A model generated the notes under the pieces. That model had not been told where the DNA came from, did not search any database, and worked only from the letters and a program-made list of their open reading frames with translations. A stretch of 33,710 bases of DNA, from NCBI GenBank assembly GCA_949298535.1, contig CASFXA010000144.1:1-33710 (forward strand), in the 5' to 3' direction. The DNA comes from an uncultured Oscillospiraceae bacterium. Its GTDB lineage: Bacteria > Bacillota > Clostridia > Oscillospirales > Ruminococcaceae. Every line of letters starts with the position of its first letter. The first letter of the stretch is position 1. A program made the translations under genes and the position numbers. This document shows positions 250 to 33,710 of this stretch, one piece after another.

Positions 250-1137
250 ATGTTCCATAAACAATCTCTGGCGGAGAAGCGGGAACAGCGCTGGGCATAC
301 ATCATGATCGCGCCCACCATCATCGGCCTGCTGATCCTCAACTATTATCCCTTGGTGGATACCATTCGCCTGAGCTTTTCCAAAACCCAGACCTTCGGAA
401 AATCCACTTTCTGCGGCCTGGAAAACTACATCGATATGTTTTCTACCCCTGAGTTCTGGAAAGCGACCTGGAACACCATTTGGTTCTGTGTGCTGACTGT
501 GCCGGTGGGGATCGCCATCGCTTTGCTGGTGGCGCTGCTGCTCAATGCGAAGGTAAAATTCAAATCCGGCTTCCGGGCCATCTATTTCCTGCCTATGGTG
601 GTGGCGCCTGCCGCTATCGCCATGGTGTGGCGCTGGATGTTCAACGGTCAATACGGCATTATCAACACCATCCTGGGGCGTCAGGTTAACTGGCTGACAG
701 ATTCCACCACCGCTCTGGTGGCCTGCGCGGTGGTGGCGATCTGGAGCTCTGTGGGCTATGACGCGGTGCTGCTGCTGTCCGGCTTGCAGAATATCTCCAA
801 GAGCTACTATGAGGCTGCCGACATCGACGGCGCCAGCAAGGTGCGGCAATTCTTTGCCATCACCCTGCCCATGATCTCCCCCACCTTGTTTGTGACTCTC
901 ATCATGCGGATGATGGCGTCCCTGAAGGTGTATGATTTGATCTATATGATGATCGATACCACCAACCCGGTGCTGCCGGAGGTTCAGAGCCTGATGTATC
1001 TGTTCTATCGGGAGGCTTTCGTGGCCGGCAATAAGGGCTATGCAGCCGCCATTTGTATGTGGACCATTCTGCTGATTGGCATTGTGACCATTGTGCAGTT
1101 TATTGGTCAGAAAAAATGGGTCAACTACGACGTGTAA
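250..1137 (+). CDS. Carbohydrate ABC transporter permease (MalF/UgpA type)
   Basis: A 295-residue integral membrane protein forming one half of the membrane channel of a sugar importer. A hydrophobic segment at about residues 15-40 is followed by further membrane spans. The cytoplasmic EAA loop, which contacts the ATPase, is visible near residues 190-210 (YYEAADIDGASKVRQFF, then ITLPMISPT). The length is normal for the MalF/UgpA-like subunits of group 1 carbohydrate systems. The start follows a GGAGG about 11 bases upstream. The second permease begins 12 bp after its stop, so the two are surely co-transcribed. The substrate cannot be read from the permease, but the GH36 enzyme downstream points to raffinose- or melibiose-type alpha-galactosides. 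No ATPase gene is seen in the visible part of the cassette. Confidence 0.93.
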   Translation: MFHKQSLAEKREQRWAYIMIAPTIIGLLILNYYPLVDTIRLSFSKTQTFGKSTFCGLENYIDMFSTPEFWKATWNTIWFCVLTVPVGIAIALLVALLLNAKVKFKSGFRAIYFLPMVVAPAAIAMVWRWMFNGQYGIINTILGRQVNWLTDSTTALVACAVVAIWSSVGYDAVLLLSGLQNISKSYYEAADIDGASKVRQFFAITLPMISPTLFVTLIMRMMASLKVYDLIYMMIDTTNPVLPEVQSLMYLFYREAFVAGNKGYAAAICMWTILLIGIVTIVQFIGQKKWVNYDV

Positions 1138-1149
1138 GGAGGCTTTCCC

Positions 1150-1992
1150 ATGCGTAAAGAACAGTCCCTGCGGCGCAGCCGGATCGCGGGGAAGTTTCTC
1201 ACCTATTTCTTTCTCATTGTGGGTTCCATTGTGATGATCTTCCCTTTCCTGTGGATGGTCCTCACCAGCCTGAAAACCCTGGCGGAGAGTATGCAGGTGC
1301 CCCCCACCATCTTCCCCGCCCAGCCGGTGTTTGAAAACTTCAGCTATGCGGTCACCAGCCTGCCCTTCGCCAACCTGTACATCAACACCATCCTGCTCAT
1401 CTTCTTCCGGGTGGTGTGCGCGGTGGCTTTCAGCTCCATGGCCGGCTATGCCTTCGCCAAGCTGAACTTCCGGTTTAAAAATCTTTTGTTTGCGCTGATT
1501 CTGGTGCAGATGATGATGCCCAGCCAGATTTTTGTGATTCCCCAGTATCAGATCCTGGCCAAATTCAGCCTCACCAACAGCATTTTCGCTCTGGTGTTCC
1601 CCGGTTTGGTGAGCGCCTTCGGCACCTTCTTTCTGCGGCAGTCCTATATGGGCATTCCAAAGGAGATCGGCGAGGCGGCCTATTTGGACGGCTGTACCCA
1701 TTGGCAGACCTTTATTAAGGTGATGGCGCCCCTCACCGGCACTTCGGTGGCGGCCCTCACCGTCTTCACTGCGGTGTTTGCTTATGCCGACCTGATGTGG
1801 CCGCTGGTGGTCAACACCGACATCAACATGATGACCCTCTCCTCCGGTCTGGCCACCTTGAAGGGTCAGTTTACCACCAACTATCCGGTGCTGATGGCCG
1901 GCAGCCTGTTGGCTATGATCCCCATGCTGGTGCTGTACCTGATCTTCCAGAAGCAGTTTGTGGAAGGTATCTCCATGACCGGCGGCAAATAA
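1150..1992 (+). CDS. Carbohydrate ABC transporter permease (MalG/UgpE type)
   Basis: A 280-residue partner of the preceding permease. It begins with a basic tail and a first membrane span at about residues 15-40, then several further spans. The EAA loop reads IPKEIGEAAYLDGCTHWQTF around residues 172-191, followed by KVMAPLTG, as in MalG-like subunits. It ends in a short hydrophilic stretch with MTGG, common in this group. The start has an AGGAGG just upstream (about 1136-1142). Together with the first permease it should form the heterodimeric channel, energised by an ATPase encoded elsewhere, probably a shared MsmK/UgpC-like subunit as is usual in Firmicutes (inference). Confidence 0.93.
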   Translation: MRKEQSLRRSRIAGKFLTYFFLIVGSIVMIFPFLWMVLTSLKTLAESMQVPPTIFPAQPVFENFSYAVTSLPFANLYINTILLIFFRVVCAVAFSSMAGYAFAKLNFRFKNLLFALILVQMMMPSQIFVIPQYQILAKFSLTNSIFALVFPGLVSAFGTFFLRQSYMGIPKEIGEAAYLDGCTHWQTFIKVMAPLTGTSVAALTVFTAVFAYADLMWPLVVNTDINMMTLSSGLATLKGQFTTNYPVLMAGSLLAMIPMLVLYLIFQKQFVEGISMTGGK

Positions 1993-2015
1993 TCGCCTGC
2001 TCTCTTTCTTCATAC

Positions 2016-2059
2016 GGCAAAGCAGTCCTGGGGCCTTCGGGCTGCGGGGCTGTTTTGCC
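2016..2059 (+). terminator. Hairpin after the permease pair
   Basis: A 13-bp stem with two wobbles (2016-2028 with 2047-2059) encloses a GC-rich loop and is followed by CTTTCTCC rather than a clean T-run. It is probably a weak or partial terminator between transporter and hydrolase genes. Confidence 0.45.
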
Positions 2060-2142
2060 CTTTCTCCTGAGAACGGCAGGGCCGCCCAATACTGTCTGCC
2101 GTCCTGTAAAATGCGTGAATGTGTTATTAAAGGTGCAATACT

Positions 2143-4329
2143 ATGATCGAATTTGTAACTTCCTCCCGTCTGTTCAATCTCCACACCAACCATACCACCT
2201 ACCAATTCCTCATTGACCCCAATGGATTTTTGCTGCATACTTATTACGGCAGAAGATGCAGCGGGGAGAGCTTCGGTCATCTGCTGCGTCAGGCGGACCG
2301 CGGTTTTTCTCCCAATCCCCGGGAGGTGGATCGGGACCGGACCTTTTCCCTGGACACCCAGCCTCAGGAATTTCCCAGCGTGGGAGTAGGGGATTTCCGC
2401 GCGCCGGTGCTGGAGGTGGAAAATGCCGACGGCAGCTGTGCGGCGGATCTGCGCTATGTCAGCCATACGATCCGTCCCGGAAAATATGGGTTGGATGGTC
2501 TGCCCGCCTTTTATGGAGACGAAAAGGAGGCGGACACCCTGGAAGTGGTTCTCCGGGATCCGTGGACCGGCCTGGAAGCTACGCTGTATTATGGCGTCTT
2601 CCCCCAGCTGGATCTGATTACCCGGGCGGTATCCTTCCGAAACGGAGGAGATCAGCCTGTGGCGCTGACCCGGGCGATGAGCGCCTGTCTGGAGCTGGGG
2701 CGAATGGAGCTGGATCTCATCACCTTTGACGGCAGCCACACCGGAGAGCGGCATCCATGCCGCCAGCGGGTCCGTCCCGGCTTGCAGCAGATCAGCTCCA
2801 TCCGGGGCATTACCAGCCATCAGCACAATAATTTTGTGGTTCTTTGCCAGCCGGACGCCGGAGAAAAACATGGCTTGTGCTACGGCATGGCTTTGGTGTA
2901 CAGCGGCAATTTTGAAGCCAATGTGGAACAGGATCAGTTTGAAAATGTCCGGTTGACCATGGGAATTTCCCCCTGGCATTTCCGCTTTCTCCTGGCTCCC
3001 GGGGAAACCTTTACCGCGCCGGAGGTGGCCATGACCTATTCCCATTATGGGCTTGAGGCCATGAGCCAGACCTTTCACCGGGCCATCCGCCACAATCTGT
3101 GCCGGGGCTGGTGGAAGACCAGGCGCCGTCCGGTGCTGCTGAACACCTGGGAAGCCGCCTATTTTGACTTTGACCAGCAGAAGCTGTTGGAGATCGCCTC
3201 CAGCGCAGCTGAAACCGGCGTGGAACTGCTGGTGTTGGACGACGGTTGGTTCGGGGAGCGCAACGATGATTACGAGGGATTGGGGGATTGGTTTGTCAAT
3301 CCCAAGAAGCTCCCTGACGGCCTCACATTCCTGGCGGAACAGGTCAACGCCTTGGGAATGGACTTTGGCATCTGGATCGAGCCGGAGATGGTCAGCGAAA
3401 AAAGCCGCCTGTATCAGGAGCATCCAGACTGGGCGCTTCAGATCCCCGGACGTCCTTCCACCCGGGGCCGCAGCCAGCTGGTGCTGGACTTCTCCCGGGA
3501 GGAGGTATGGCGGGGGGTTTACGCCCAGATCAAGAAGGTGTTGGAGAGCGCCAACATCGCCTATGTGAAGTGGGACATGAACCGCAGCCTGACCGATGTC
3601 TGGAGCGCCGCGCTGCCGCCGGAGCGTCAGGGGGAGCTGTATCACCGGTATGTGCTGGGTGTTTATGCCATGCTGGAACAGATGATTTCCGACTTCCCCA
3701 AGCTGCTCGTGGAGGGCTGCTGCGGCGGCGGCGGGCGTTTCGATTGCGGAATGCTTTATTATACGCCCCAGATCTGGGCCAGCGACAACACCGACGCCAT
3801 GGATCGGCTGCTGCTCCAGTATGGCACTTCCTTCTGCTATCCCACTTCTGCGGTGGGTTCCCATGTCTCGGCGGTGCCCAATGAGCAAACTGGCCGCAGC
3901 ACTCCTCTTCATACCCGGGCGATTGTGGCTATGTCCGGCACCTTTGGATATGAGCTGGATCCCCGGGGCCTCAGCCAGCCGGAACGGAAACAGATGCGGG
4001 CGCAAATTGAGGATTTCAAGCGCTATTATCATCTGCTTCAGGAGGGGGACTACGCCCGCCTCACCGACCCCTTCCGCAATCGGGAGTTTACTGCCTGGCA
4101 GCATACGGCCCGGGACCGCAGCGAGGCCCTTGTCAGCGTGGTCACCACCATGGCCCGCTCCAACGCTCCCTTCTGCACCGTTTATCCCCGGGGTTTGGAC
4201 CCTGACGCTTTGTATCAGGTGGAGGGAGGCGGCAGCTTCCGGGGAGATACGTTGATGTATGGAGGTATCCCCTTGCCTCAGGGCGGTGGGGATTATCAGT
4301 CCTGGCAGTTCCATCTGAAAAAGATTTGA
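2143..4329 (+). CDS. Alpha-galactosidase, glycoside hydrolase family 36
   Basis: A 728-residue enzyme that removes terminal alpha-1,6-galactose from melibiose, raffinose and related sugars by a retaining mechanism. It has the full family layout: an N-terminal beta-sandwich (about 1-320), a TIM barrel (about 330-650) and a C-terminal sheet. Visible motifs are LLVLDDGWFG, IWIEPEMVSE, YVKWDMNRSL with nucleophile Asp478, and WASDNTDAMDR with acid/base Asp548. From memory, these numbers equal those reported for Geobacillus AgaA; Trp336 and Ala355 also align. No signal peptide is seen, so the enzyme is cytoplasmic and acts on imported sugar. The start ATG follows AAAGGTG. The gene lies between the ABC permeases and an AraC-type regulator, as in alpha-galactoside utilisation loci. 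No truncation is apparent. Confidence 0.96.
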   Translation: MIEFVTSSRLFNLHTNHTTYQFLIDPNGFLLHTYYGRRCSGESFGHLLRQADRGFSPNPREVDRDRTFSLDTQPQEFPSVGVGDFRAPVLEVENADGSCAADLRYVSHTIRPGKYGLDGLPAFYGDEKEADTLEVVLRDPWTGLEATLYYGVFPQLDLITRAVSFRNGGDQPVALTRAMSACLELGRMELDLITFDGSHTGERHPCRQRVRPGLQQISSIRGITSHQHNNFVVLCQPDAGEKHGLCYGMALVYSGNFEANVEQDQFENVRLTMGISPWHFRFLLAPGETFTAPEVAMTYSHYGLEAMSQTFHRAIRHNLCRGWWKTRRRPVLLNTWEAAYFDFDQQKLLEIASSAAETGVELLVLDDGWFGERNDDYEGLGDWFVNPKKLPDGLTFLAEQVNALGMDFGIWIEPEMVSEKSRLYQEHPDWALQIPGRPSTRGRSQLVLDFSREEVWRGVYAQIKKVLESANIAYVKWDMNRSLTDVWSAALPPERQGELYHRYVLGVYAMLEQMISDFPKLLVEGCCGGGGRFDCGMLYYTPQIWASDNTDAMDRLLLQYGTSFCYPTSAVGSHVSAVPNEQTGRSTPLHTRAIVAMSGTFGYELDPRGLSQPERKQMRAQIEDFKRYYHLLQEGDYARLTDPFRNREFTAWQHTARDRSEALVSVVTTMARSNAPFCTVYPRGLDPDALYQVEGGGSFRGDTLMYGGIPLPQGGGDYQSWQFHLKKI

Positions 4330-4369
4330 CGCAATACGGCCTGGCCGCACCGACGGATAGGAGGCATCT

Positions 4370-5242
4370 ATGGACAACTTTTCCTTTTCCATTTTTCCCA
4401 ATGAAAACTTTGTGGATCTGACCATGTATCAGTATGGATGGGAGCAGTGTGAGCCTCTCCATTCCTATGGACCTGCCATTCGCAACCACTATCTGTTCCA
4501 TCTGGTCCTCTCCGGCAGCGGTACCCTCCGCTCCGCCGGGCCGGACCGGGTGGACCGGGAGTATCGCCTCACCGCCGGCAGCGGTTTTCTCATTTGTCCC
4601 GGACAGGTGAACACCTATTGGGCGGATGAGAAGGACCCCTGGAAATACGCCTGGGTGGAGTTTGACGGCATCCAGGCCAAAAAGAGACTGGAGCTGGCGG
4701 GGCTGGATGTTTCCAACCCCATCTACCGGCCTAAAAATCAGCGTCTGAATCAGCAGGTGCAGCAGGAGATCTGCTACATATCAGACCACAAGGACAGTTC
4801 CGCTCTTCATCTGATTGGCCATCTGTATCTGCTGCTGGACGGTTTGATTCAGGCTTCCTCTTCCCGCCGGGAGCTGCGCAACCAGTCTCAGAAAGGGTTT
4901 TATATTCAGGAGGCCATCAATTTCATCGCCCAGAATTATCAGCGTGACATCACCGTGGAGGAGATCGCCGGGGTTTGTAAGCTCAACCGCACCTATTTTG
5001 GCCGATTGTTCAAACAGATGATGGGCTCTACCCCTCAGGAGTATTTAACCCAGTTCCGCCTGTCCAAAGGGGTGGAGCTGATGCGCAGCACCGATTATCC
5101 CATCACCCAGATTTCACAGCTGGTGGGCTATCCCAATCCGCTCCATTTTTCCAAGGTCTTTAAAAAGGCTTACGGCGTTTCTCCCCGCACCTGGCGCAGC
5201 GAGGACAGCCAGGTGGTAGCGACAAAGGAAAAGCAAAAATAA
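4370..5242 (+). CDS. AraC-family transcriptional regulator with cupin sensor domain
   Basis: A 290-residue regulator. The N-terminal half (about 20-160) has the AraC-type cupin pattern, including LVLSGSGTL and LICPGQVNTYWAD. The C-terminal 100 residues hold two helix-turn-helix units: ITVEEIAGVCKLNRTYFGRLFK and then ITQISQLVGYPNPLHFSKVFKK, closed by GVSPRTWR. The start has AGGAGG seven bases upstream. It begins 40 bp after the alpha-galactosidase stop and probably belongs to the same transcript. By analogy with MsmR and RafR it would bind an alpha-galactoside and activate the cassette (inference). A strong shared terminator follows. Confidence 0.93.
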   Translation: MDNFSFSIFPNENFVDLTMYQYGWEQCEPLHSYGPAIRNHYLFHLVLSGSGTLRSAGPDRVDREYRLTAGSGFLICPGQVNTYWADEKDPWKYAWVEFDGIQAKKRLELAGLDVSNPIYRPKNQRLNQQVQQEICYISDHKDSSALHLIGHLYLLLDGLIQASSSRRELRNQSQKGFYIQEAINFIAQNYQRDITVEEIAGVCKLNRTYFGRLFKQMMGSTPQEYLTQFRLSKGVELMRSTDYPITQISQLVGYPNPLHFSKVFKKAYGVSPRTWRSEDSQVVATKEKQK

Positions 5243-5255
5243 AGTCAATAAAAGT

Positions 5256-5303
5256 GAAACGGTGTGTCCCTTCCTGGAAAAGGACACACCGTTTCATTTT
5301 TGT
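5256..5303. terminator. Bidirectional terminator between AraC and LysR genes
   Basis: A perfect 14-bp stem (5256-5269 with 5282-5295) is followed on + by ATTTTTG and on - by a T-rich stretch. It separates two convergent genes and probably serves both. Confidence 0.85.
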
Positions 5304-5331
5304 ATGAGCAGAGAAAATGAGTACTGCAAAA

Positions 5332-6261
5332 TTAAAAAGAGCGATCCTTTGAAAAAAGATTTTTGGTGGTGTCAATAAAATTTCGGACCACAGTGGATAG
5401 TACGTTTCCTTTGGGATAAGCGATCACGAAGGTCCAGTAGGCTTCATACCAATCTTCCAGATAGCAGAAAAAGGGTTCGCGGGGACACCGGAACAGCTGA
5501 ATATAGCTTTCTGGCAGAAGGGTCATCCCCAGTCCCACAGAGGCAAATCGCAACGCTGTCTGTACGCTGCTGGTGACCAAGGTAACGTCAGGTTCGATTC
5601 CCGCTTTCTCTAAAATGAGATTGGAAATTTGCCGCACCCGTTGGCCTGGAAAAGACAGAATGAACTTTTCTGTTCCCGCTTTTGTCAAATCCAGATAAGG
5701 ATATTTTTCATCTTGTTTGTAGTATGCCTCTTTGGCCAAGGGATGCCCTTGAGCGAAAGCAAGCACATACCGATCCTTACAGATGATTTCATATTCTGCC
5801 TGAATACTTTTCAGCGGCAGATGCATTAGGCTGATGTCCACTTCGCTGTTTTCCAGCAAAGACTCCAGCTTTTCCGAAGATCCCTCGGTGATAAGAACAT
5901 CCACGTTGGGGTATTTCCTTTGAAAAAGGGGCAGCACCTCTGGCAATACCAGAGATCCAATATGGACAGAGGTGCCGATTTTCAGTCGCCCCTTTTGCAT
6001 TTTGTTGATTTCGCAAAGTTCCTGCTCAAAGTTTTCCTGGAGATTGACCATTTTGTGGATCATCTGAATGTAGTATTCACCGGCATAGGTGGGAACCAAT
6101 CCATTTTTGTTGCGGGTGAATAATTCCACTCCCAGTTGTGCTTCCAGCCTGGATAAAAACAAGCTGAGCGCTGGCTGTGTCAGATACAGCTTTTCCGCTG
6201 CTTTTGAAATGCTTCTTTCCGATGCAAGGGCCAAAACGTAGATCCATTCTTTGTTGTTCAT
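5332..6261 (-). CDS. LysR-family transcriptional regulator
   Basis: A 309-residue regulator counted from the ATG at 6261. A GTG 13 codons upstream would lengthen it, but the LysR domain normally begins right at MNNKEWIYVLALASE and a GGTGGGG lies before the ATG. Residues 1-60 form the winged helix-turn-helix (ISKAAEKLYLTQPALSLFLSRLE). Residues of about 85-295 form the periplasmic-binding-protein-like effector domain (KIGTSVHIGSLVLPEVLPLF). It is the last gene of a four-gene minus-strand run with a transporter and two hydrolases. LysR regulators usually control an adjacent catabolic operon in response to a pathway metabolite, so this one probably controls that run. The effector is unknown. Confidence 0.92.
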   Translation of the reverse strand: MNNKEWIYVLALASERSISKAAEKLYLTQPALSLFLSRLEAQLGVELFTRNKNGLVPTYAGEYYIQMIHKMVNLQENFEQELCEINKMQKGRLKIGTSVHIGSLVLPEVLPLFQRKYPNVDVLITEGSSEKLESLLENSEVDISLMHLPLKSIQAEYEIICKDRYVLAFAQGHPLAKEAYYKQDEKYPYLDLTKAGTEKFILSFPGQRVRQISNLILEKAGIEPDVTLVTSSVQTALRFASVGLGMTLLPESYIQLFRCPREPFFCYLEDWYEAYWTFVIAYPKGNVLSTVVRNFIDTTKNLFSKDRSF

Positions 6262-26796: not shown

Positions 26797-28002
26797 ATGA
26801 GCCTGATCGTGCAGAAGTTCGGCGGCACTTCGGTGGCCAATGCCGAACGGATCATGAATGTTGCAAACATCGTCACCGAAACCTACGCCAAGGGCAACAA
26901 TGTGGTGGTGGTGGTCTCCGCCCAGGGAGACACCACCGACGACCTCATTGAAAAAGCCAAGGAAATCAACGAAAAGCCGTCCAAGCGGGAGATGGACGTC
27001 CTTCTGTCCACTGGAGAACAGATCTCCATCGCCCTGCTGGCTATGGCCATTGAGAAGCTGGGGTACCCTGTCAAATCCCTTACCGGCTGGCAGGCAGGCT
27101 TTGTCACCGATTCCACCCACGGCAGCAGCCGTATCCGCCGCATCGACAAGGAGCGGCTGCGCAATGAGCTGGACAAAGGGAACATCATCATTGTGGCAGG
27201 CTTCCAGGGCATCAACCGCTATGACGACATCACCACTCTGGGCCGGGGCGGCTCGGATACCAGCGCGGTGGCCCTGGCGGCGGTACTTCACGCCGATCTC
27301 TGTCAGATTTATACCGATGTGGACGGGGTCTATACATCGGATCCCCGGATCGTCCCCAACGCCCGGAAGCTGGACGTTATCTCCTTTGATGAGATGCTGG
27401 AGCTGTCCAGTCTGGGAGCCCAGGTACTCCACACCCGCAGCGTGGAGATGGCGAAAAAGTATAATGTGAATCTTGAGGTGCTTTCCAGCCTGACACGGAA
27501 GCCCGGAACGGTAATCAAGGAGGTCGTTGACGTGGAAAAGATGCTCATCAAAGGAGTTGCCAAAGATAATAATGTGGCGCGCCTGTCCATTATCGGCGTG
27601 CAGGATGTTCCCGGTATCGCTTTTAAGATTTTCTCCTCCCTGGCGGCGAAAAAGATCAATGTGGATATTATTCTTCAGTCGATAGGCCGCAACAACACCA
27701 AGGACATCGCCTTCACCGTGGCGGCAGATCAGATGGAGGAAGCGCTGGAGGTGCTGGACGATCTGAAAAAGGTGATGAACGCCAAGGAGATCGTCTATGA
27801 CGACAACATTTCCAAGGTGTCCATTGTAGGCGCCGGTATGGCAACCAACCCAGGCGTGGCCGCCAAGATGTTTGAGGCTCTGGCGGATGCGGGCATCAAC
27901 ATTCAGATGATCTCCACCAGCGAGATCAAGATTTCGGTGCTCATCAACAAGGACGACTGCAAACGTGCTGTCAACGCCATCCACGACGCTTTTATTGTGT
28001 GA
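26797..28002 (+). CDS. lysC: Aspartate kinase (aspartokinase)
   Basis: A 401-residue enzyme for the first step of the aspartate pathway: phosphorylation of aspartate to beta-aspartyl phosphate, feeding lysine, threonine and methionine. KFGGTSV begins at residue 7. The kinase core continues with VVVVSAQGDTTDDL, LLSTGEQIS, TTLGRGGSDTSAVALAA and the YTDVDGVYTSDPR motif. Two tandem ACT domains follow (about 265-335 and 345-401), seen from LSIIGVQDVPGIAFKIF and VSIVGAGMATNPGVAAKMF, as in lysine- or threonine-inhibited monofunctional aspartokinases. GGAGGG precedes the ATG. It closes the ACT-hom-thrB operon; the hairpin array begins 33 bp later. Confidence 0.97.
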   Translation: MSLIVQKFGGTSVANAERIMNVANIVTETYAKGNNVVVVVSAQGDTTDDLIEKAKEINEKPSKREMDVLLSTGEQISIALLAMAIEKLGYPVKSLTGWQAGFVTDSTHGSSRIRRIDKERLRNELDKGNIIIVAGFQGINRYDDITTLGRGGSDTSAVALAAVLHADLCQIYTDVDGVYTSDPRIVPNARKLDVISFDEMLELSSLGAQVLHTRSVEMAKKYNVNLEVLSSLTRKPGTVIKEVVDVEKMLIKGVAKDNNVARLSIIGVQDVPGIAFKIFSSLAAKKINVDIILQSIGRNNTKDIAFTVAADQMEEALEVLDDLKKVMNAKEIVYDDNISKVSIVGAGMATNPGVAAKMFEALADAGINIQMISTSEIKISVLINKDDCKRAVNAIHDAFIV

Positions 28003-28034
28003 GAGAAAAGCGCGTCAAAGGGTTCCAGATCAAG

Positions 28035-28217
28035 TCAGCCCCCATCCCAAAAGATGGGGGCTGAGCGTGTCGAAAAAATTCGACACGCTTCCAGGGGGTA
28101 TCCCATACCCCCTGGATACGCCGCAGGTTCCTGACGAAACCAGCGGCGATACCCCCGGTTTCGCGCCCCTGTGGGCGCGGGTCGTGGGATAAAAATCAGG
28201 CGCATGTCCTGATTTTT
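28035..28217. repeat. Array of six consecutive perfect or near-perfect hairpins
   Basis: Six stem-loops follow with little spacing: 28035-28046/28053-28064 (12 bp); 28065-28074/28079-28088 (10 bp); 28091-28101/28105-28115 (11 bp); 28119-28129/28138-28148 (11 positions, A/A mismatch); 28162-28168/28173-28179 (7 bp); 28191-28200/28208-28217 (10 bp, T-run). No coding frame fits. The first hairpin recurs exactly at 28267-28292. This looks like a mobile or dispersed intergenic repeat (MITE- or REP-like) or a complex RNA; which one cannot be told from one copy. Confidence 0.75.
28191..28217 (+). terminator. Intrinsic terminator at the end of the hairpin array
   Basis: A 10-bp stem (AAAAATCAGG with CCTGATTTTT) around a 7-base loop ends in five T. 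It would end transcripts coming from lysC, and by symmetry those from the other side. Confidence 0.7.
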
Positions 28218-28266
28218 ATGATTGTGAATGTTGTTTTCCTTTTGAAAGCGGTTTTTTGACAGCCTG

Positions 28267-28292
28267 AGCCCCCATCCCAAAAGATGGGGGCT
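28267..28292. repeat. Second copy of the 26-nt palindromic repeat
   Basis: This 26-nt sequence, a 10-bp stem around a CCAAAA loop, is identical to 28037-28062. The two copies are 230 bp apart and bracket the array. A perfect 14-bp palindrome (28296-28309) follows at once. Confidence 0.85.
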
Positions 28293-28586
28293 TTGTCCTG
28301 CCGGCAGGAGGTCTGGAAGAAAGGAAATTTCTCTCCTTGCAGCAAGGGAAGAACGGTGCAATCCACAGCGGAAGGGAAAATGGCCGTTCCCATTGCCTCG
28401 GAAAGGTATCCGTCCAAGACAGCCGCTGGAAGTTTTTCAGTCCGGTCCCTCTGCCGGAACCTGCCAAAAGGATGGCCCCCCTTGGCCGCTTTTTCACAGG
28501 GAAAAAACTGTGTCCCGGGAAAGGCCGCAGGGGCCCTTTCGCCGCAAGCTCTGCAAGGCTTTCCCTCGGGGAAGCGAGGCGGCCAA
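28293..28586. other. Intergenic stretch, small hairpins but no recognised gene
   Basis: Several short stems occur (CCTTG/CAAGG near 28337, CACAG/CTGTG near 28495-28512, CCTCG/CGAGG near 28563-28578). Open frames on both strands here have repetitive, Pro/Arg-rich composition and no ribosome sites, and are not called. It may be part of the same repeat element. Confidence 0.4.
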
Positions 28587-28615
28587 TTGACACCGCTTCC
28601 GCTTTTTGCTAAAAT
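28587..28615 (+). promoter_or_regulatory. Promoter of the methyltransferase-FmdE-ABC-larE operon
   Basis: A perfect TTGACA (28587-28592), a 17-bp spacer and TAAAAT (28610-28615) lie about 200 bp upstream of the first gene, leaving a long leader. Confidence 0.85.
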
Positions 28616-28617
28616 AG

Positions 28618-28712
28618 AACCAGAACCGCTGGCACAAGTCAGCGATGCCGGCAGGAAGCTGGTTTTCCCCCGCGCTACCGCCCCGGAGGCGGCATAGGAG
28701 AAAGAATAACAG
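28618..28712 (+). ncRNA. Structured 5' leader, candidate riboswitch of unassigned class
   Basis: This lies between a strong promoter and an intrinsic terminator, 100 bases before the first start codon. Stems seen are 28618-28623 with 28659-28664, enclosing 28627-28631 with 28640-28644; then 28663-28668 with 28697-28702, enclosing 28678-28682 with 28688-28692 across an asymmetric internal loop; and 28708-28712 with 28722-28726. The ~95-nt size and attached terminator fit a riboswitch that attenuates transcription. Conserved cores I know by heart (TPP, FMN, SAM-I, fluoride, guanidine-I, the cobalamin B12 box) are not visible. Moco-type, NiCo-type, other metal-cofactor classes or a new class remain possible given the genes controlled. 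Confidence 0.5.
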
Positions 28713-28725
28713 TGCAGAAGGCTGT

Positions 28726-28770
28726 TTTGCCTGTCCTCAAGGGACGGGTAAACCGGTCTTTTCTTTTTTG
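28726..28770 (+). terminator. Leader terminator (attenuator) ahead of the metal-uptake operon
   Basis: An 11-bp stem with two wobbles (28726-28736 with 28742-28752) is followed at 28757-28770 by TCTTTTCTTTTTTG. A competing AGGC/GCCT pairing (28719-28722 with 28729-28732) would break its 5' arm and could act as antiterminator. The operon starts at 28813. Confidence 0.75.
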
Positions 28771-28812
28771 CTTTGTTTTATGGCAGGGGAAAGAAATGAA
28801 GGAGGAAAGCCT

Positions 28813-29631
28813 GTGCTTTTGGAACAGATTGAGGCGGCCTGGACCGGCAGCCAAACCAATGATACAGCCATGACCGCCTGGTGGGACGGAAGGGCGGCCA
28901 GCTTTGCGGAAAGTTCCCGTCAGCTGCCCCGGCGGGAAAACAGCTTCACCCTGCGGCTGATGGAGGATCATGGAATGATCCAGACCGGAGGAACCGCCCT
29001 GGATGTAGGCTGCGGAGCGGGAAAATACACCTTTTTGCTGGCAAAGCGGGGAATGAAGGCCCATGGTACCGATATTTCCCCGGAGATGATCCGGTATGCC
29101 CGGCGGCGGGAAGAGGAGGAAGGAAGTACCGCCACCTTTTCCGCCGACAACTGGCGGCAGGTGGATCTGGCCGGCAAAGACTGGGAGGGAGCCTTTGACC
29201 TGGTGCTGGCCAACACCACGCCGGCCATCTGCTCTGCTGAAACCTTCCGCAAGCTGTCCAGCGCCAGCCGGAACTGGTGCCTTCTGACCAAGCCCACCCG
29301 CCGGACCAATTCGGTGCTGGACCCTCTGCGGCAGCTGATCGGGGTGGATACCGACCTTGCCCGCCCTGATGAGGAGCTGGCCTATGGTTTGAGCCTGCTG
29401 TGGCTGGAGGGATATTGCCCCCGACTGGATTATGAGGTGCAGCATTGGGACCATGTGCTGCCTCTGGAAGAAGCGATTTCCTTTTACACCTGCCGCATGG
29501 CTACCTTTGGGCAGCTGGACAGGGAGAAGGAGCGGCAGATTGCCGGATATCTGGGGAGTATTGCCAGGGATGGCATGGTGGAGGAAGAAACCGACACGAC
29601 CGTTACCGCCTTGTACTGGCAAGTGAAATGA
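28813..29631 (+). CDS. Class I SAM-dependent methyltransferase
   Basis: A 272-residue methyltransferase. Motif I is ALDVGCGAGKYTFLLA (about 62-77), followed by GTDISPEMIRYARRR, which binds the SAM ribose. FDLVLANTTPAI matches motif IV. The C-terminal 120 residues hold the substrate-specific part, including WLEGYCPRLDYEVQHWDHVLPLEEAI. The start is a GTG at 28813 with AAGGAGG seven bases upstream; the upstream frame runs through the leader RNA and is rejected. It is the first gene of the operon and lies 20 bp from the FmdE-family gene. Methyltransferases of this kind recur beside FmdE and FecCD-type transporters in clostridia, to my recollection; the substrate is unknown. Confidence 0.9.
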   Translation: MLLEQIEAAWTGSQTNDTAMTAWWDGRAASFAESSRQLPRRENSFTLRLMEDHGMIQTGGTALDVGCGAGKYTFLLAKRGMKAHGTDISPEMIRYARRREEEEGSTATFSADNWRQVDLAGKDWEGAFDLVLANTTPAICSAETFRKLSSASRNWCLLTKPTRRTNSVLDPLRQLIGVDTDLARPDEELAYGLSLLWLEGYCPRLDYEVQHWDHVLPLEEAISFYTCRMATFGQLDREKERQIAGYLGSIARDGMVEEETDTTVTALYWQVK

Positions 29632-29651: not shown

Positions 29652-30176
29652 ATGAACAGAGAACTTTGGGATAAAGCGGTGGCCTTCCATGGCCATCAGT
29701 GCCCGGGACTGGCCATCGGCGTTCGGGCAGCCATGATTGTGCTGGAGGAGTTTGCTGCCGGACGGGCGGAGGATGAGGAGCTGGTTTGTGTCACCGAAAA
29801 CGACGCCTGCGGTGTGGATGGCATCCAGGCCCTTCTCAGCTGTACCATGGGGAAAGGAAATCTGATTCTGCGCCCCACCGGCAAGCAGGCCTTCAGCTTT
29901 TTTGAGCGAAAAAGCGGGCGCAGCCTTCGCCTTTACCTCAAGCCTCTGCCGGAAGAGATGACCCGGGAGGAAAAGATCCGCTATATTCTGGAGGCTCCGG
30001 CGGAGGAGGTGTTCGCCTTTGGAAAACCTTCCTTCCCCCTGCCCCAGCGGGCCAGAATGTTTTCCACTGTGGTGTGTGAAAAATGCGGCGAGGGGGCGCC
30101 GGAGCACAAGATCCGCCTCCAGGATGGGAAAAAGGTCTGCCTGGATTGCTTTAAAGATTACAGCCGGGGCTGGTAA
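29652..30176 (+). CDS. FmdE family protein with C-terminal zinc finger
   Basis: A 174-residue protein of the family named after subunit E of molybdenum formylmethanofuran dehydrogenase. The hallmark FHGHQCPG is at residues 12-19, followed by LAIGVRAA and VTENDACGVDGIQ. These His and Cys residues probably bind a metal. The C-terminus is a zinc-ribbon-like unit with CEKC (142-145) and CLDC (163-166). This organism-type is not methanogenic, so the protein is not an Fmd subunit. FmdE homologues in bacteria accompany metal transporters and molybdenum or tungsten enzymes, which suggests a metal-delivery or sensing role (inference). Its stop is 11 bp from the next gene. Confidence 0.93.
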   Translation: MNRELWDKAVAFHGHQCPGLAIGVRAAMIVLEEFAAGRAEDEELVCVTENDACGVDGIQALLSCTMGKGNLILRPTGKQAFSFFERKSGRSLRLYLKPLPEEMTREEKIRYILEAPAEEVFAFGKPSFPLPQRARMFSTVVCEKCGEGAPEHKIRLQDGKKVCLDCFKDYSRGW

Positions 30177-30187
30177 GGAGAGAAAGC

Positions 30188-31330
30188 GTGAAAAAATTTT
30201 CCAGAACCATTTCGCTCATTGCAGCGGTCATGCTGACCCTCTCCGGCTGCGGACAGACTTCGGCTCCGGCCACATCTTCCGCTGTCTCTGCCCCCAGTGG
30301 GGAAGTCGCCACGGCAGGGCAGCAAGCCACCCGCACTGTCACCGACCTGATGGGCCGCCAGGTGGAGCTTCCCCAGGAGATCAACTCGGTTATCTGCACC
30401 GGCTCCGGTGCTTTGCGGCTGGTCTGCTACGCCCAGGGAGCCGATCTGGTCACCGGCGTGGAGGACACTGACAAGAAGCGGCAGATTGCCCGACCGTATA
30501 ACTATGTCTATTCCCCTCAGTTTCAGGACCTGCCCAGCATCGGCAAGGGGGGCGGAAGAGGCTATACCGCCTATGAGGAGGAGATCATTTCCCTTCAACC
30601 GGATGTGATCCTCACCGCCTACACCAGCGACGCGCTGGAAGAGCTGGCGGCAAAAACAGGGATTCCGGTGGTATCCATCGGCTACCAAAGCAATCTCTTT
30701 GACCCCTCCGTATCCCAGGCCCTCACCCTGGTGGGCCAGGTGCTGGGACGGGAGGAGCGGTGCGCCCAGCTGGTGGAGGCTATGGAGGAGATCAGGCAGG
30801 ACCTGGCGGAACGGACCAAGGACATTCCCCAGGAGGAAAAGCCTTCCGCCTATGCCGGAGCTGTCACCTATTCCGGCGGCCATGGCTTCGGAGGAACCTA
30901 CAGCAATTTTGGCCCCTTTACCGCCATCGGAGCGGTGAACGTGGCGGACGGAATCCGTCAGGAGGGGGGCTTTGAGGTGGACCTGGAGCAGGTCCTGGCG
31001 TGGGACCCGGACGTAATCTTTCTGGACCCGGCCAATATGTCTTTGGTCAGTGATGAATACGCCAAAAATCCCGTCTATTTTCAGTCTCTCCGGGCGGTGC
31101 GGGAGGGGAAAGTTTACGCTCTGCCCTGCTTCAACCAGTACGCCACCAATATTGAAATCGCCATTGCCGACGCTTATTATGCCGGAAAGGTGCTGTTCCC
31201 GGAGCAGTTTGCCGATGTGGATATGGACCAGAAGGCGGATGAACTGCTGGAACTGTTTTTAGGCACAGCTTTTTACAGCGAGATGAAGGAGGCGGGTCTG
31301 TCCTTTGAACCCATCACCATTGGCCCATAA
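30188..31330 (+). CDS. ABC transporter substrate-binding lipoprotein (iron-complex/cobalamin type)
   Basis: A 380-residue lipoprotein. The signal peptide ends in the lipobox LTLSGC with Cys21, followed by a Ser/Thr/Ala-rich linker. The helical-backbone binding fold (FecB/BtuF class) begins with TVTDLMGRQVELP and has the conserved ISLQPDVILTA and VLAWDPDVIFLDP. A glycine-rich loop KGGGRGYTAY and GGHGFGGTYSNFGPF near the inter-lobe cleft may bind the ligand. The start is GTG with AAGGAGAG before it. It captures a metal, metal complex or corrinoid outside the membrane and passes it to the FecCD-type permease that follows. Neighbours FmdE and LarE argue for a metal ion or its complex. Confidence 0.93.
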   Translation: MKKFSRTISLIAAVMLTLSGCGQTSAPATSSAVSAPSGEVATAGQQATRTVTDLMGRQVELPQEINSVICTGSGALRLVCYAQGADLVTGVEDTDKKRQIARPYNYVYSPQFQDLPSIGKGGGRGYTAYEEEIISLQPDVILTAYTSDALEELAAKTGIPVVSIGYQSNLFDPSVSQALTLVGQVLGREERCAQLVEAMEEIRQDLAERTKDIPQEEKPSAYAGAVTYSGGHGFGGTYSNFGPFTAIGAVNVADGIRQEGGFEVDLEQVLAWDPDVIFLDPANMSLVSDEYAKNPVYFQSLRAVREGKVYALPCFNQYATNIEIAIADAYYAGKVLFPEQFADVDMDQKADELLELFLGTAFYSEMKEAGLSFEPITIGP

Positions 31331-31340
31331 TCCTTCCCCC

Positions 31341-32384
31341 ATGGGGGAGTACCGGCGCTACCTGGGCCGGAAGATATTGCTGCTGGCAGCTTTGGCGCTG
31401 GTACTGGTGGGGGCGGTGCTGGCCTCCATCCTGGCCGGTTCCTCAGGATTGACCCTGGGGCAGGTGCTGGCGGCTCTGGTTGGCCGGGGTACAACGCAAA
31501 CCTCCACCATCGTTTGGAATGTGCGGATGCCCCGGATCGCCGCCGCTGTGGTGGTGGGCTGTGGTCTGGCTGTGGCGGGCTGTGTGATGCAAAGCGTTCT
31601 CCACAATCCTTTGGCCTCCGCTTCCACTCTGGGGGTCTCTCAGGGGGCTTCCTTCGGGGCCACGGTGGCGATCGTCTGTCTGGGGGCGGGAGCCCAGCAG
31701 GGCAGCTCCACCAGCGGTACCATCACCATTTATAATCCCACGCTGGTGACCTTCTGTGCTTTCCTTGGGGGGATGGTGACGGTCTGCGTCATTCTGGCCC
31801 TCTCCCGAGTGCGGATGTCCACCCCCGCCACCATGATACTGGCCGGTGTGGCTCTTTCCTCCCTGTTTACCGGCGGCGCTACTCTGGTGCAGTACTTTGC
31901 CGATGATGTGGTGCTGGCTTCGGTGGTCTACTGGACCTTCGGAGACCTGGGGCGGGCCGGCTGGAACGAAACCGGACTGATTTTTCTGGTACTGCTGGTG
32001 GCTTTCGCTTACTTTTTGCTCCACAGCTGGAGCTATAATGCTCTCCAGAGCGGCCCTCAGACAGCCAAGAGCCTGGGGGTGCCGGTGGAACGGCTGACCC
32101 TGGTGACCATGACCCTGGCGGCGCTCTTATCGGCGGCGGCGGTATCCTTTGTGGGGATCATCAACTTTGTGGGCCTCATCGCGCCTCACATGGTCCGGCG
32201 GCTGGTGGGCAGCGACCACCGTTTCCTCCTTCCTGCCTCAGCGCTGGCGGGGGCCAGTGTGCTGCTCCTCAGCGATCTGCTGGCCCGGGTGGCAGCCTCC
32301 CCCATGGTGCTGCCCATCGGCGCGGTCACTTCTTTTCTGGGAGCGCCGCTGTTTCTCTATCTCATCTACAAGGGGGCGAAATAA
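31341..32384 (+). CDS. FecCD-type ABC transporter permease
   Basis: A permease of 347 residues from the ATG at 31341, with about ten membrane helices. Family motifs are VRMPRIAAAVVVGCGLAVAG, NPLASASTLGVSQGASFG, GVALSSLFTGG, AKSLGVPVERLT and VGIINFVGLIAPHMVRRLVG, the last being the ATPase-contact region of the BtuC/FecD family. The ATG at 31341 lacks a good Shine-Dalgarno. A TTG at 31305, overlapping the lipoprotein gene, has AAGGAGG twelve bases before it, so the start is uncertain by 12 codons. Coupled translation is likely either way. It should work as a homodimer. Confidence 0.93.
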   Translation: MGEYRRYLGRKILLLAALALVLVGAVLASILAGSSGLTLGQVLAALVGRGTTQTSTIVWNVRMPRIAAAVVVGCGLAVAGCVMQSVLHNPLASASTLGVSQGASFGATVAIVCLGAGAQQGSSTSGTITIYNPTLVTFCAFLGGMVTVCVILALSRVRMSTPATMILAGVALSSLFTGGATLVQYFADDVVLASVVYWTFGDLGRAGWNETGLIFLVLLVAFAYFLLHSWSYNALQSGPQTAKSLGVPVERLTLVTMTLAALLSAAAVSFVGIINFVGLIAPHMVRRLVGSDHRFLLPASALAGASVLLLSDLLARVAASPMVLPIGAVTSFLGAPLFLYLIYKGAK

Positions 32385-33161
32385 ATGCTTTCGGTGGAAA
32401 ATCTCACCTTCGGTTATACCGTCTCCCGTCCTGTGCTGGAGGGAGTGTCATTTGAAGCTGCGAAGGGACATTGCACCGCCATTCTGGGCAATAACGGCGC
32501 GGGCAAAAGCACCCTCATTCAGTGCCTGTGTAAAATCCTCACCCCAAAGTCCGGCAGAGTGCTGCTGGATGGACAGGATCTGCTGGCCTGCTCCCCCCGA
32601 CAGATTGCCCGGCAGGTGGCCTATGTGGCACAGTATGGAGAAGCCGCCCGTTTCACGGTCTTTGATACGGTGCTCCTGGGGCGCAAGCCCTTTATCCGCT
32701 TTGGTCCCACGGCGGAGGATTACAGGGTAGTGGAGGAAATTCTGGAGCGGATGGAGCTGATAGACCTTTCCATGGCCTATCTGGATGAGCTTTCCGGCGG
32801 GCAGAGGCAGAAGGTGCTGCTGGCCCGGGCTCTGGCTCAGAAGCCCCAGGTGCTGCTGCTGGACGAACCTACCAGCAGCCTGGACCTGAAAAACCAGCAT
32901 GGGATGTTGGCTCTGGTTTCACGACTGACCCGGGAAGAAGGATTGACGGTACTGCTGGTGATCCACGATCTGAATCTGGCCCTGCGGTACTGTGACCGCT
33001 TTGTCCTGATGGAACATCATGGAGTTCGGGCACAGGGAGGCGTGGAGATCATGACCGGAGAGCTACTCAGCCAGGTGTACGGGATGCCGGTGACAGTGGA
33101 ACAAAGCCACGGTTTTCCAGTGGTGGTGCCGTTGTCACCCGTTCAATCATTGGCCTCCTGA
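32385..33161 (+). CDS. ABC transporter ATP-binding protein (FepC/BtuD type)
   Basis: A 258-residue ATPase that drives the FecCD-type importer. Walker A is GNNGAGKST (residues 35-43), the Q-loop is around VAYVAQYGEAA, the signature motif is LSGGQRQKVLLARALAQ, Walker B is VLLLDEPTSSLD and the H-loop is LLVIHDLN. All catalytic residues are present. The ATG directly follows the permease stop codon with no gap, so translation is coupled. The C-terminal extension after the H-loop has the MTGELLSQVYGMPV stretch usual for this subfamily. Confidence 0.96.
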   Translation: MLSVENLTFGYTVSRPVLEGVSFEAAKGHCTAILGNNGAGKSTLIQCLCKILTPKSGRVLLDGQDLLACSPRQIARQVAYVAQYGEAARFTVFDTVLLGRKPFIRFGPTAEDYRVVEEILERMELIDLSMAYLDELSGGQRQKVLLARALAQKPQVLLLDEPTSSLDLKNQHGMLALVSRLTREEGLTVLLVIHDLNLALRYCDRFVLMEHHGVRAQGGVEIMTGELLSQVYGMPVTVEQSHGFPVVVPLSPVQSLAS

Positions 33162-33192: not shown

Positions 33193-33710
33193 ATGGAACT
33201 TTCTGAATTTTTCGCTGAAAATCCCGCTGTCGCCCTGGGTTTTTCCGGGGGTGTGGATTCTGCCTTTCTCCTGTGGGCAGCCCTCCATTACGGCGCCCAG
33301 GTAGAGGCTTATTATGTCAAAACCCCCTTTCAGCCCCGGTTTGAACTGGAGGATGCCCGGAAGCTGGCCGGTCAGCTGGGGGCGAAGATGACGGTGCTGG
33401 AAACCGATGTCCTGGATCTGCCCCAGGTGGCCTGTAATCCCGGGGACCGGTGCTATCACTGCAAAAACGCCATTTTCAGCCTCATCCGGCGGCAGGCGGC
33501 AGCGGACGGATGGCCGGTGCTCATAGACGGCACCAATGCCTCCGATGATGCCGGTGACCGCCCGGGAATGAAAGCCCTGCGGGAGCTGGAGGTCCGTTCC
33601 CCGCTAAGGGAATGCGGCATCACCAAAAAGGAAGTGCGCCGGCGCAGCAGGGAAGCGGGGCTGTTTACCTGGGACAAGCCCGCCTACGCCTGTCTCGCCA
33701 CCCGGATTCC
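33193..33710 (+). CDS. larE: ATP-dependent sacrificial sulfur transferase LarE, N-terminal part
   Basis: An open frame from an ATG with AAAGGAG upstream runs off the right edge, so the first 172 residues are seen. The PP-loop SGGVDSAF is at residues 19-26. CYHCK, DGTNASDD and RSPLRECGITKKEVR follow. WDKPAYACLATRI contains Cys167, at the position of the cysteine that L. plantarum LarE gives up as sulfur donor (Cys176 there, from memory). LarE installs the sulfurs of the nickel-pincer nucleotide cofactor first found in lactate racemase. It is the sixth gene of the operon. Its presence suggests that the importer upstream serves nickel, or that LarE here works for another sulfur-containing metal cofactor. 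larB, larC and larA are not in the window. Confidence 0.93.
   Translation, partial: MELSEFFAENPAVALGFSGGVDSAFLLWAALHYGAQVEAYYVKTPFQPRFELEDARKLAGQLGAKMTVLETDVLDLPQVACNPGDRCYHCKNAIFSLIRRQAAADGWPVLIDGTNASDDAGDRPGMKALRELEVRSPLRECGITKKEVRRRSREAGLFTWDKPAYACLATRI

Follow-up and report, generated by a model that had tools for sequence, protein, structure and literature searches.

What controls the operon for a methyltransferase, an FmdE protein, a Fec-type importer and LarE at the end of this window (the whole stretch of 33,710 nucleotides analysed here)? The earlier note, made from the letters alone, had taken the leader of this operon for a transcription-attenuating riboswitch of no recognised class and had looked to a metal or a metal cofactor for its ligand. 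Several questions are raised. Does the leader carry the parts of a transcriptional switch? Is it shared with other bacteria? To which metal do the accompanying genes point? Is the signal read by the RNA itself or by a protein? The analysis shows that a real transcription-stop switch precedes a set of genes for a nickel cofactor and for metal uptake.

Architecture of the leader

The promoter in front of the leader agrees with the consensus at 11 of 12 positions around a 17-nt spacer and is the sole one within 28000-28900, the pattern occurring on average 0.1 times per shuffle in a shuffled control; the perfect spacing claimed for it is borne out. The RNA from 28618 to 28776 has a folding energy of -64.1 kcal/mol, compared with -51.5 (sd 3.95) in shuffled sequences (z -3.2), none of 200 shuffles being as good. 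What had been described as nested stems is a row of separate hairpins, although the asymmetric internal loop does exist, within the third of them (Table 1). Similarly, the terminator and its T tract (TTTTCTTTTTT) are present as described, but the 11-bp stem is only the upper part of a stem of 21 pairs in total, the 5′ arm of which opens with AGAAGGCUG.

The 3′ half of the hairpin P2 is part of the terminator 5′ arm, and because of this overlap P2 and the terminator are mutually exclusive. P2 is modest in strength (-4.4 kcal/mol), and its loop would become AGAA given an inner C28715-G28720 pair, which needs a bulge; a linker of 44 nt separates it from P1. When prefixes of the leader were folded, P2 was present at 28726. 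At 28735 and 28745 a different pairing had displaced it; at 28755 it was back, together with the upper terminator stem, and at 28760, with the lower stem closed, it was gone. The antiterminator pairing suspected earlier can thus be refined to this local hairpin, which alternates with the terminator in the prefix folds. The reading of the leader as transcription-attenuating is supported.

Table 1. Leader features and genes, with positions in the window.
Feature	Position	Strand	Basis
Promoter, TTGACA - 17 nt - TAAAAT	28587..28615	+	promoter scan
Hairpin 1, loop ACAA	28627..28644	+	folding and comparison with A. massiliensis
P1, GCCGGC-AGGAA-GCUGGU, ANGAA-class loop, C-G closed	28647..28663	+	hairpin counts, two-feature scan
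Hairpin 3, whole, with asymmetric internal loop inside	28664..28703	+	folding
Hairpin 3, inner stem CCGCC/GGCGG	28678..28692	+	stem identical in A. massiliensis, loop different
P2, antiterminator hairpin, AACAGU-GCAGAAG-GCUGUU	28708..28726	+	prefix folds, terminator-arm sequence
Intrinsic terminator, 21 pairs	28716..28762	+	lower stem 28716-28724/28754-28762, upper stem 28726-28737/28741-28752
Terminator T tract	28759..28769	+	read from the sequence
SAM-dependent methyltransferase	28813..29631	+	profile search; start by eye
FmdE domain with zf-dskA_traR zinc finger	29652..30176	+	PF02663, PF01258
FecB-like periplasmic metal/siderophore-type binding protein	30188..31330	+	PF01497
FecCD-type permease, start uncertain	31305..32384	+	PF01032
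FecE-like ABC ATPase	32385..33161	+	PF00005
LarE, truncated by the window end	33193..33710	+	TIGR00268, 177.7 bits, cut-off 150

The operon and its counterpart in a sister species

The gene order after the leader is methyltransferase-FmdE-FecB-FecD-FecE-LarE. By eye, the probable start of the first gene is a GTG at 28813, with AGGAGG at 28800-28805 ahead of it. The genome is Angelakisella-like, its FmdE protein being 92% identical to that of Angelakisella massiliensis (L039). The operon of A. massiliensis extends past LarE with LarB and LarC; LarE, LarB and LarC are the makers of the nickel-pincer cofactor.

The leader of A. massiliensis can be aligned along its whole length, whereas the DNA farther upstream cannot. 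No difference is seen in the ACAA and AGGAA loops or in the stretch AACAGUGCAGAAGGCUGUUUUGCCUGUCC, and 38 of the 39 modelled pairs can form. In hairpin 1 a single pair differs on both sides, two differ on one side and another is lost; P1 has two pairs changed on one side and none on both; the terminator has four changed on one side. A shuffle control on this alignment (244/500) is uninformative with only two leaders, and a comparison of two sequences lends weak support to any single stem.

Could the leader then be a plain strong terminator, or a constitutive attenuator that merely lowers expression and answers to no signal? The terminator is indeed strong on its own (-27.5 kcal/mol), but its arm retains an alternative hairpin, and the P1 loop is kept despite lying outside the terminator and having no part in it, so that something should read this loop. 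We regard a signal-free leader as very improbable.

A motif recurring in FmdE leaders

For a comparison of leaders, 80 FmdE loci were collected, and more were added from the order and the class. A pattern recurs among them: a hairpin (P1) closed by C-G, with the loop AUGAA, AAGAA or ACGAA, and then a segment ACCAYGAAGG..., which doubles as a small second hairpin (P2) and as the 5′ arm of an intrinsic terminator. It is called the xGAA element below. Hairpins of at least five pairs, closed by C-G and with a loop of 4 to 6 nt not chosen beforehand, were counted in 103 distinct leaders of at most 300 nt, from which leaders shorter than 150 nt and duplicates had been excluded. The loops found most often were AUGAA (13), AAGAA (9) and ACGAA (7). 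There were 31 ANGAA hairpins against 0.34 expected from a background of 1.37 Mb of the same loci, compared with 131 observed and 88.9 expected for all hairpins of the counted kind. They occur in 28 of the 103 leaders, the other 75 having none, and 29 cases in 101 leaders remain when Angelakisella is removed. When AGAA and UGAA loops are counted too, 33 leaders are positive and 70 have none of the three classes, partly because FmdE is frequently not the first gene. As for the terminators, 35/72 of those in leaders have xGAAG[GA] among the 14 nt that open the 5′ arm; outside the leaders, 14/666 terminators of the loci have it, and some of these 14 resemble additional members. The spacing between the two xGAA hairpins varies from 7 to 106 nt, and the second position of the P1 loop is variable among members.

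In an alignment of 16 members, which make up the main subtype, all P1 cells pair and four of the six P1 pairs are changed on both sides; this pairing is partly a selection effect, because only sequences with a stem of four or more pairs had been taken as members. The terminator stem is paired in 97.9% of cells, and sliding the partners by 1 to 3 columns lowers the pairing from 93.7% to 39-47%. The structure expected in the leaders of homologous operons was found in part: the motif is enriched and P1 covaries over the 16 members, but the majority of the 103 leaders have no P1 hairpin.

Some variants were also seen. The tops of main-subtype terminators (alignment A2, columns 97-112) form a hairpin, often with the loop AAGAA, AUGAA or AAGGA, in which three of five pairs are changed on both sides. 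In Desulfosporosinus leaders upstream of FmdE (L061, L066, L089, L093), the loop within the terminator arm is AUGGA (AGACC-AUGGA-GGUCU); this loop was seen 5 times in the count of 103 leaders. Upstream of the methyltransferase in L042 and L070, the motif is replaced, by eye, by a long A+T-rich inverted repeat (GCCTAATTTTTCTC...GAGAAAAATTAGGC), perhaps an operator.

Membership of the window leader

A covariance model, R1, was built from the 16 main-subtype members. Run against the window with filters off, it did not find the leader, its best score (15.2 bits) lying elsewhere in the window. Because R1 failed as a test of membership, a scan for two features, P1 and the terminator-arm sequence, was used instead. 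Over both strands of the window it gives one match, at the leader. Markov copies of the + strand, 2.02 Mb in all, give none, although they contain 16 P1-like hairpins. The leader has a P1 of at least five pairs with a C-G closing pair and an ANGAA loop upstream of the terminator, xGAAG[GA] in a terminator 5′ arm capable of forming P2, though a weak one, and nickel-type genes downstream. P1 has the loop AGGAA in L280 (before CbiM), L249 (methyltransferase-NikB) and L295 (ECF-S) as well, and in other FmdE leaders (L118, L127; L107, L111, L123) the terminator arm belongs to the AGAAGG or the AAGAAGG type. By two features rather than by the model, the window leader looks like a divergent member of the xGAA element.

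The failure of R1 would also be explained if the leader were an attenuator peculiar to Angelakisella and unrelated to the xGAA element, with hairpins 1 and 3 as its functional parts and the AGGAA loop and AGAAGG arm as coincidences. A. massiliensis has retained hairpin 1 as well as hairpin 3, the latter only in its inner stem 28678-28692, and no counterpart of either hairpin was recognised in leaders outside Angelakisella. Coincidence, however, would have to supply a joint feature that is absent from 2.02 Mb of randomised window sequence and whose parts have separate rates of about 0.0033 per leader (loop, 0.34/103) and 14/666 (terminator); the AGGAA loops and similar arms of the other leaders listed above also argue against it. 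Such an explanation is quite unlikely.

Genes that follow the element

Matches to R1 at E<=0.01 are present in 42 of the 391 genomes of the class. The genes downstream were read for 33 hits at E<=1e-3, eight of which are training sequences, with HMM checks on examples only. The next gene is CbiM/NikM in 10 (in G747, just a CbiQ-like frame was called), FmdE in 7, all of them also in the collection of FmdE loci, NikA- or NikB-type in 5, DUF4198 in 1, LarE in 1 (L245, TIGR00268 above cut-off), an ECF S-component in 5 and its usual partner gene in 1. The other three have no gene (L279), a radical SAM protein (L254) or a chelatase-like ATPase (L284). With the training sequences removed, 16/25 are of nickel/cobalt type, 6/25 are ECF-S or partner genes and 3/25 are others. 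The NikA and NikB examples score below the NCBIfam cut-offs, and the CbiM of L242 bears a PDGLE domain. At E 0.003, the motif of L290 stands ahead of an operon in which CbiQ-like, ATPase and LarE-like frames were seen by eye.

A larE gene follows the element immediately in L245 and, from the window's own order, in L271. In the latter leader (G315), P1 is AAAGCCC-CGAA-GGGCTTT, and P2, GTTGCC-ACGAA-GGTAAC, lies in the terminator arm. Inspection of four larE leaders (L266, L268, L270, L271) found the motif in L271 and in none of the others. The R1 search of this order gave 11 hits in 8/285 genomes; nine were read, and they precede CbiM (2), ECF-S (2) or no called gene (1, L297) or are unconvincing (4). 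An earlier pattern search had matched 98/391 genomes, many by chance, and 20 chosen places were inspected.

In L212, L213, L214, L251, L253, L257 and L300, the motif stands before an ECF S-component and a subsequent gene of ~300-360 aa, which in L212 has a weak match to PRK06547, a P-loop protein; L278 and L301 have a methyltransferase as the next gene. At a guess, the ECF-S pair may salvage a precursor of the nickel cofactor. The hits before the radical SAM protein (L254, G642:C5) and, by eye, before a chelatase-like ATPase pair (L284, G780:C20) may be unexpected members of the regulon or may be due to chance. One cluster (L248, G564:C23) has two hits, of which one precedes DUF3842 and the other an SBP gene.

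Nickel or cobalt

The metal or metal-cofactor theme proposed earlier is supported and can be narrowed to nickel by LarE, LarB and LarC here and by CbiM/NikM, NikA/B-type and larE genes elsewhere; the gene neighbours of the element would thus point to nickel as the signal. CbiM may serve cobalt or nickel. Cobalamin riboswitches stand before the CbiM genes that were found in G000, G002 and G132, Angelakisella included, so that cobalt is apparently under B12 control there, whereas the LarE operon carries the xGAA element. One CbiM tested (L215) scores above the cut-off of an NCBIfam model whose name is cobalt transporter, which keeps cobalt as a candidate.

NikR is a DNA-binding repressor of nickel uptake genes, according to an excerpt of its description (PMC2667541). 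Its targets are of the same kind as those of the xGAA element, which, in contrast, is an RNA. Among 27 motif genomes, NikR_C has weak matches in 6 (E 6e-6 to 8e-4, frames of 84-115 aa) and none in G000 or G002.

Relation to known RNA elements

In line with the earlier note, which could match the leader to no class, no Rfam riboswitch fits it: a search with the Rfam covariance models, NiCo, Moco, cobalamin and guanidine-II included, was negative at the leader. Rfam 15 gave no match there at the gathering score, and the eight sub-threshold matches in 28200-28830, up to E 10, include no riboswitch. In 34 whole loci (15 + 19), Rfam matched only cobalamin, T-box and tRNA families, none at xGAA elements. 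A cobalamin-like look of 28300-28420, noticed by eye, found no support in the sub-threshold search. In the open-licence PMC literature, no paper combining FmdE with a riboswitch was found, and the parts seen of the matches listed, including PMC2667541, PMC11477304 and PMC2965389, contain no report of this element.

Guanidine-II riboswitches have four-nucleotide ACGR loops that form pockets and pair loop to loop; the loops ACAA, AGGAA and AGAA of the window do not have this form. The likeness lies in the core, since excerpts describe the whole conserved core of guanidine-II (mini-ykkC) as two similar tandem stem-loops (PMC7266159, PMC9481103), whereas guanidine-II controls other genes and has no Rfam match to the xGAA element. 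The same excerpts describe the NiCo (czcD) riboswitch as switching on exporters at high metal (PMC7266159, PMC9481103); it shares the nickel/cobalt theme, but its structure differs and it has no Rfam match at the window leader. A parallel in layout is also given by the target RNA of ANTAR proteins (eut, nasF and amiE leaders), in which, as far as the available text goes, a pair of short hairpins has conserved loops, and hairpin two overlaps an intrinsic terminator and thereby excludes it (PMC3369931, PMC8934654). The window leader likewise has a second hairpin overlapping its terminator. The ANTAR target loops, however, are given as 6 nt with A1 and G4, and the E. faecalis eut linkers as 5-12 nt (PMC3369931, PMC8934654, in part), whereas the window has AGGAA and AGAA and the xGAA element in general has 5-nt ANGAA or 4-nt xGAA loops and a wider range of spacing.

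A possible mechanism

We give about an even chance to the reading that the leader is an antitermination element of a nickel regulon, acting in nickel shortage through a putative RNA-binding protein in an ANTAR-like manner. RNA polymerase would make P1 first and P2 next. If P2 were held, the lower terminator stem would be blocked and the upper hairpin would end at 28752, 6 nt short of the T tract; readthrough would then allow the uptake and LarE(-LarB-LarC) operon to be transcribed. If P2 were released, the 21-pair terminator would capture its 3′ half and transcription would stop. The putative protein would grip both xGAA loops when nickel is scarce and let go when it is plentiful, making use of the hairpin pair as ANTAR proteins do of theirs. 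A protein reader is favoured because the stems are free in sequence, the spacing of 7-106 nt is so variable and expression would be needed at low metal. The computations establish the element, its incompatibility with the terminator, its enrichment and the genes beside it; we infer the direction of control, nickel as the signal and the protein itself.

What could this protein be? An ANTAR protein is present in 19 of the 27 motif genomes, G000 and G002 among them, and its absence from the other eight speaks against ANTAR as the general factor, though it is a conceivable one in Angelakisella itself. CsrA sites, which feature GGA, were rejected since the common loops AUGAA, AAGAA and ACGAA are without it. 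A start codon in the loop (CAUGAAG) was rejected too, as the AAGAA and ACGAA members have none. Beside the motif, the ORF clusters present in at least 4 of 38 loci comprise just FmdE, ABC-transporter parts and the methyltransferase, and include no regulator.

The lack of a common neighbouring regulator gene, and of ANTAR proteins in eight motif genomes, would also suit a true riboswitch, in which nickel ions, the nickel-pincer cofactor or a precursor of it would bind directly to the pair of xGAA hairpins without any protein. Two-hairpin riboswitches exist, so direct sensing by the RNA is conceivable; the element is common to nickel-pincer and uptake genes, and tandem hairpins with conserved loops ahead of a terminator are the layout of guanidine-II as excerpted (PMC7266159, PMC9481103). 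On the other hand, such variable spacing and a core extending barely beyond the loops would be unusual for an aptamer, the variable second loop position means that loop-loop pairing like that of guanidine-II is not evident, and a metal holding P1 and P2 would, by reasoning, switch uptake on at high metal, the wrong direction for homeostasis. A protein-free riboswitch is accordingly possible but rather unlikely.

Many of these clostridia have nickel-type importers without a clear NikR. It is a slightly more doubtful proposition that the RNA element, widespread in clostridia, is a general nickel-shortage switch in place of NikR, the xGAA hairpins themselves sensing nickel or the cofactor. If true, the switch would cover CbiM/NikM-, NikABCDE- and FmdE-Fec-type uptake as well as nickel-pincer cofactor genes, and the xGAA element would be a riboswitch for nickel acquisition. 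With the antitermination reading, too, a shared RNA element would delineate a clostridial nickel regulon and suggest substrates for orphan transporters, namely the FmdE-linked Fec-type importer and the ECF S-component whose partner is kinase-like or a methyltransferase; it offers a lead toward either a nickel-sensing riboswitch or a new family of RNA-binding antiterminators.

Two further observations concern the genome of the window. A second FecB-FecD-FecE-methyltransferase-FmdE set lies at 1097-5531 on the minus strand of another contig (L120, G000:C170), where no leader motif was seen by eye. A dispersed repeat of ~210 nt occupies 28057-28274 of the window, and ~40 more copies with 72-96% identity are found in the genome, many of them at contig ends.
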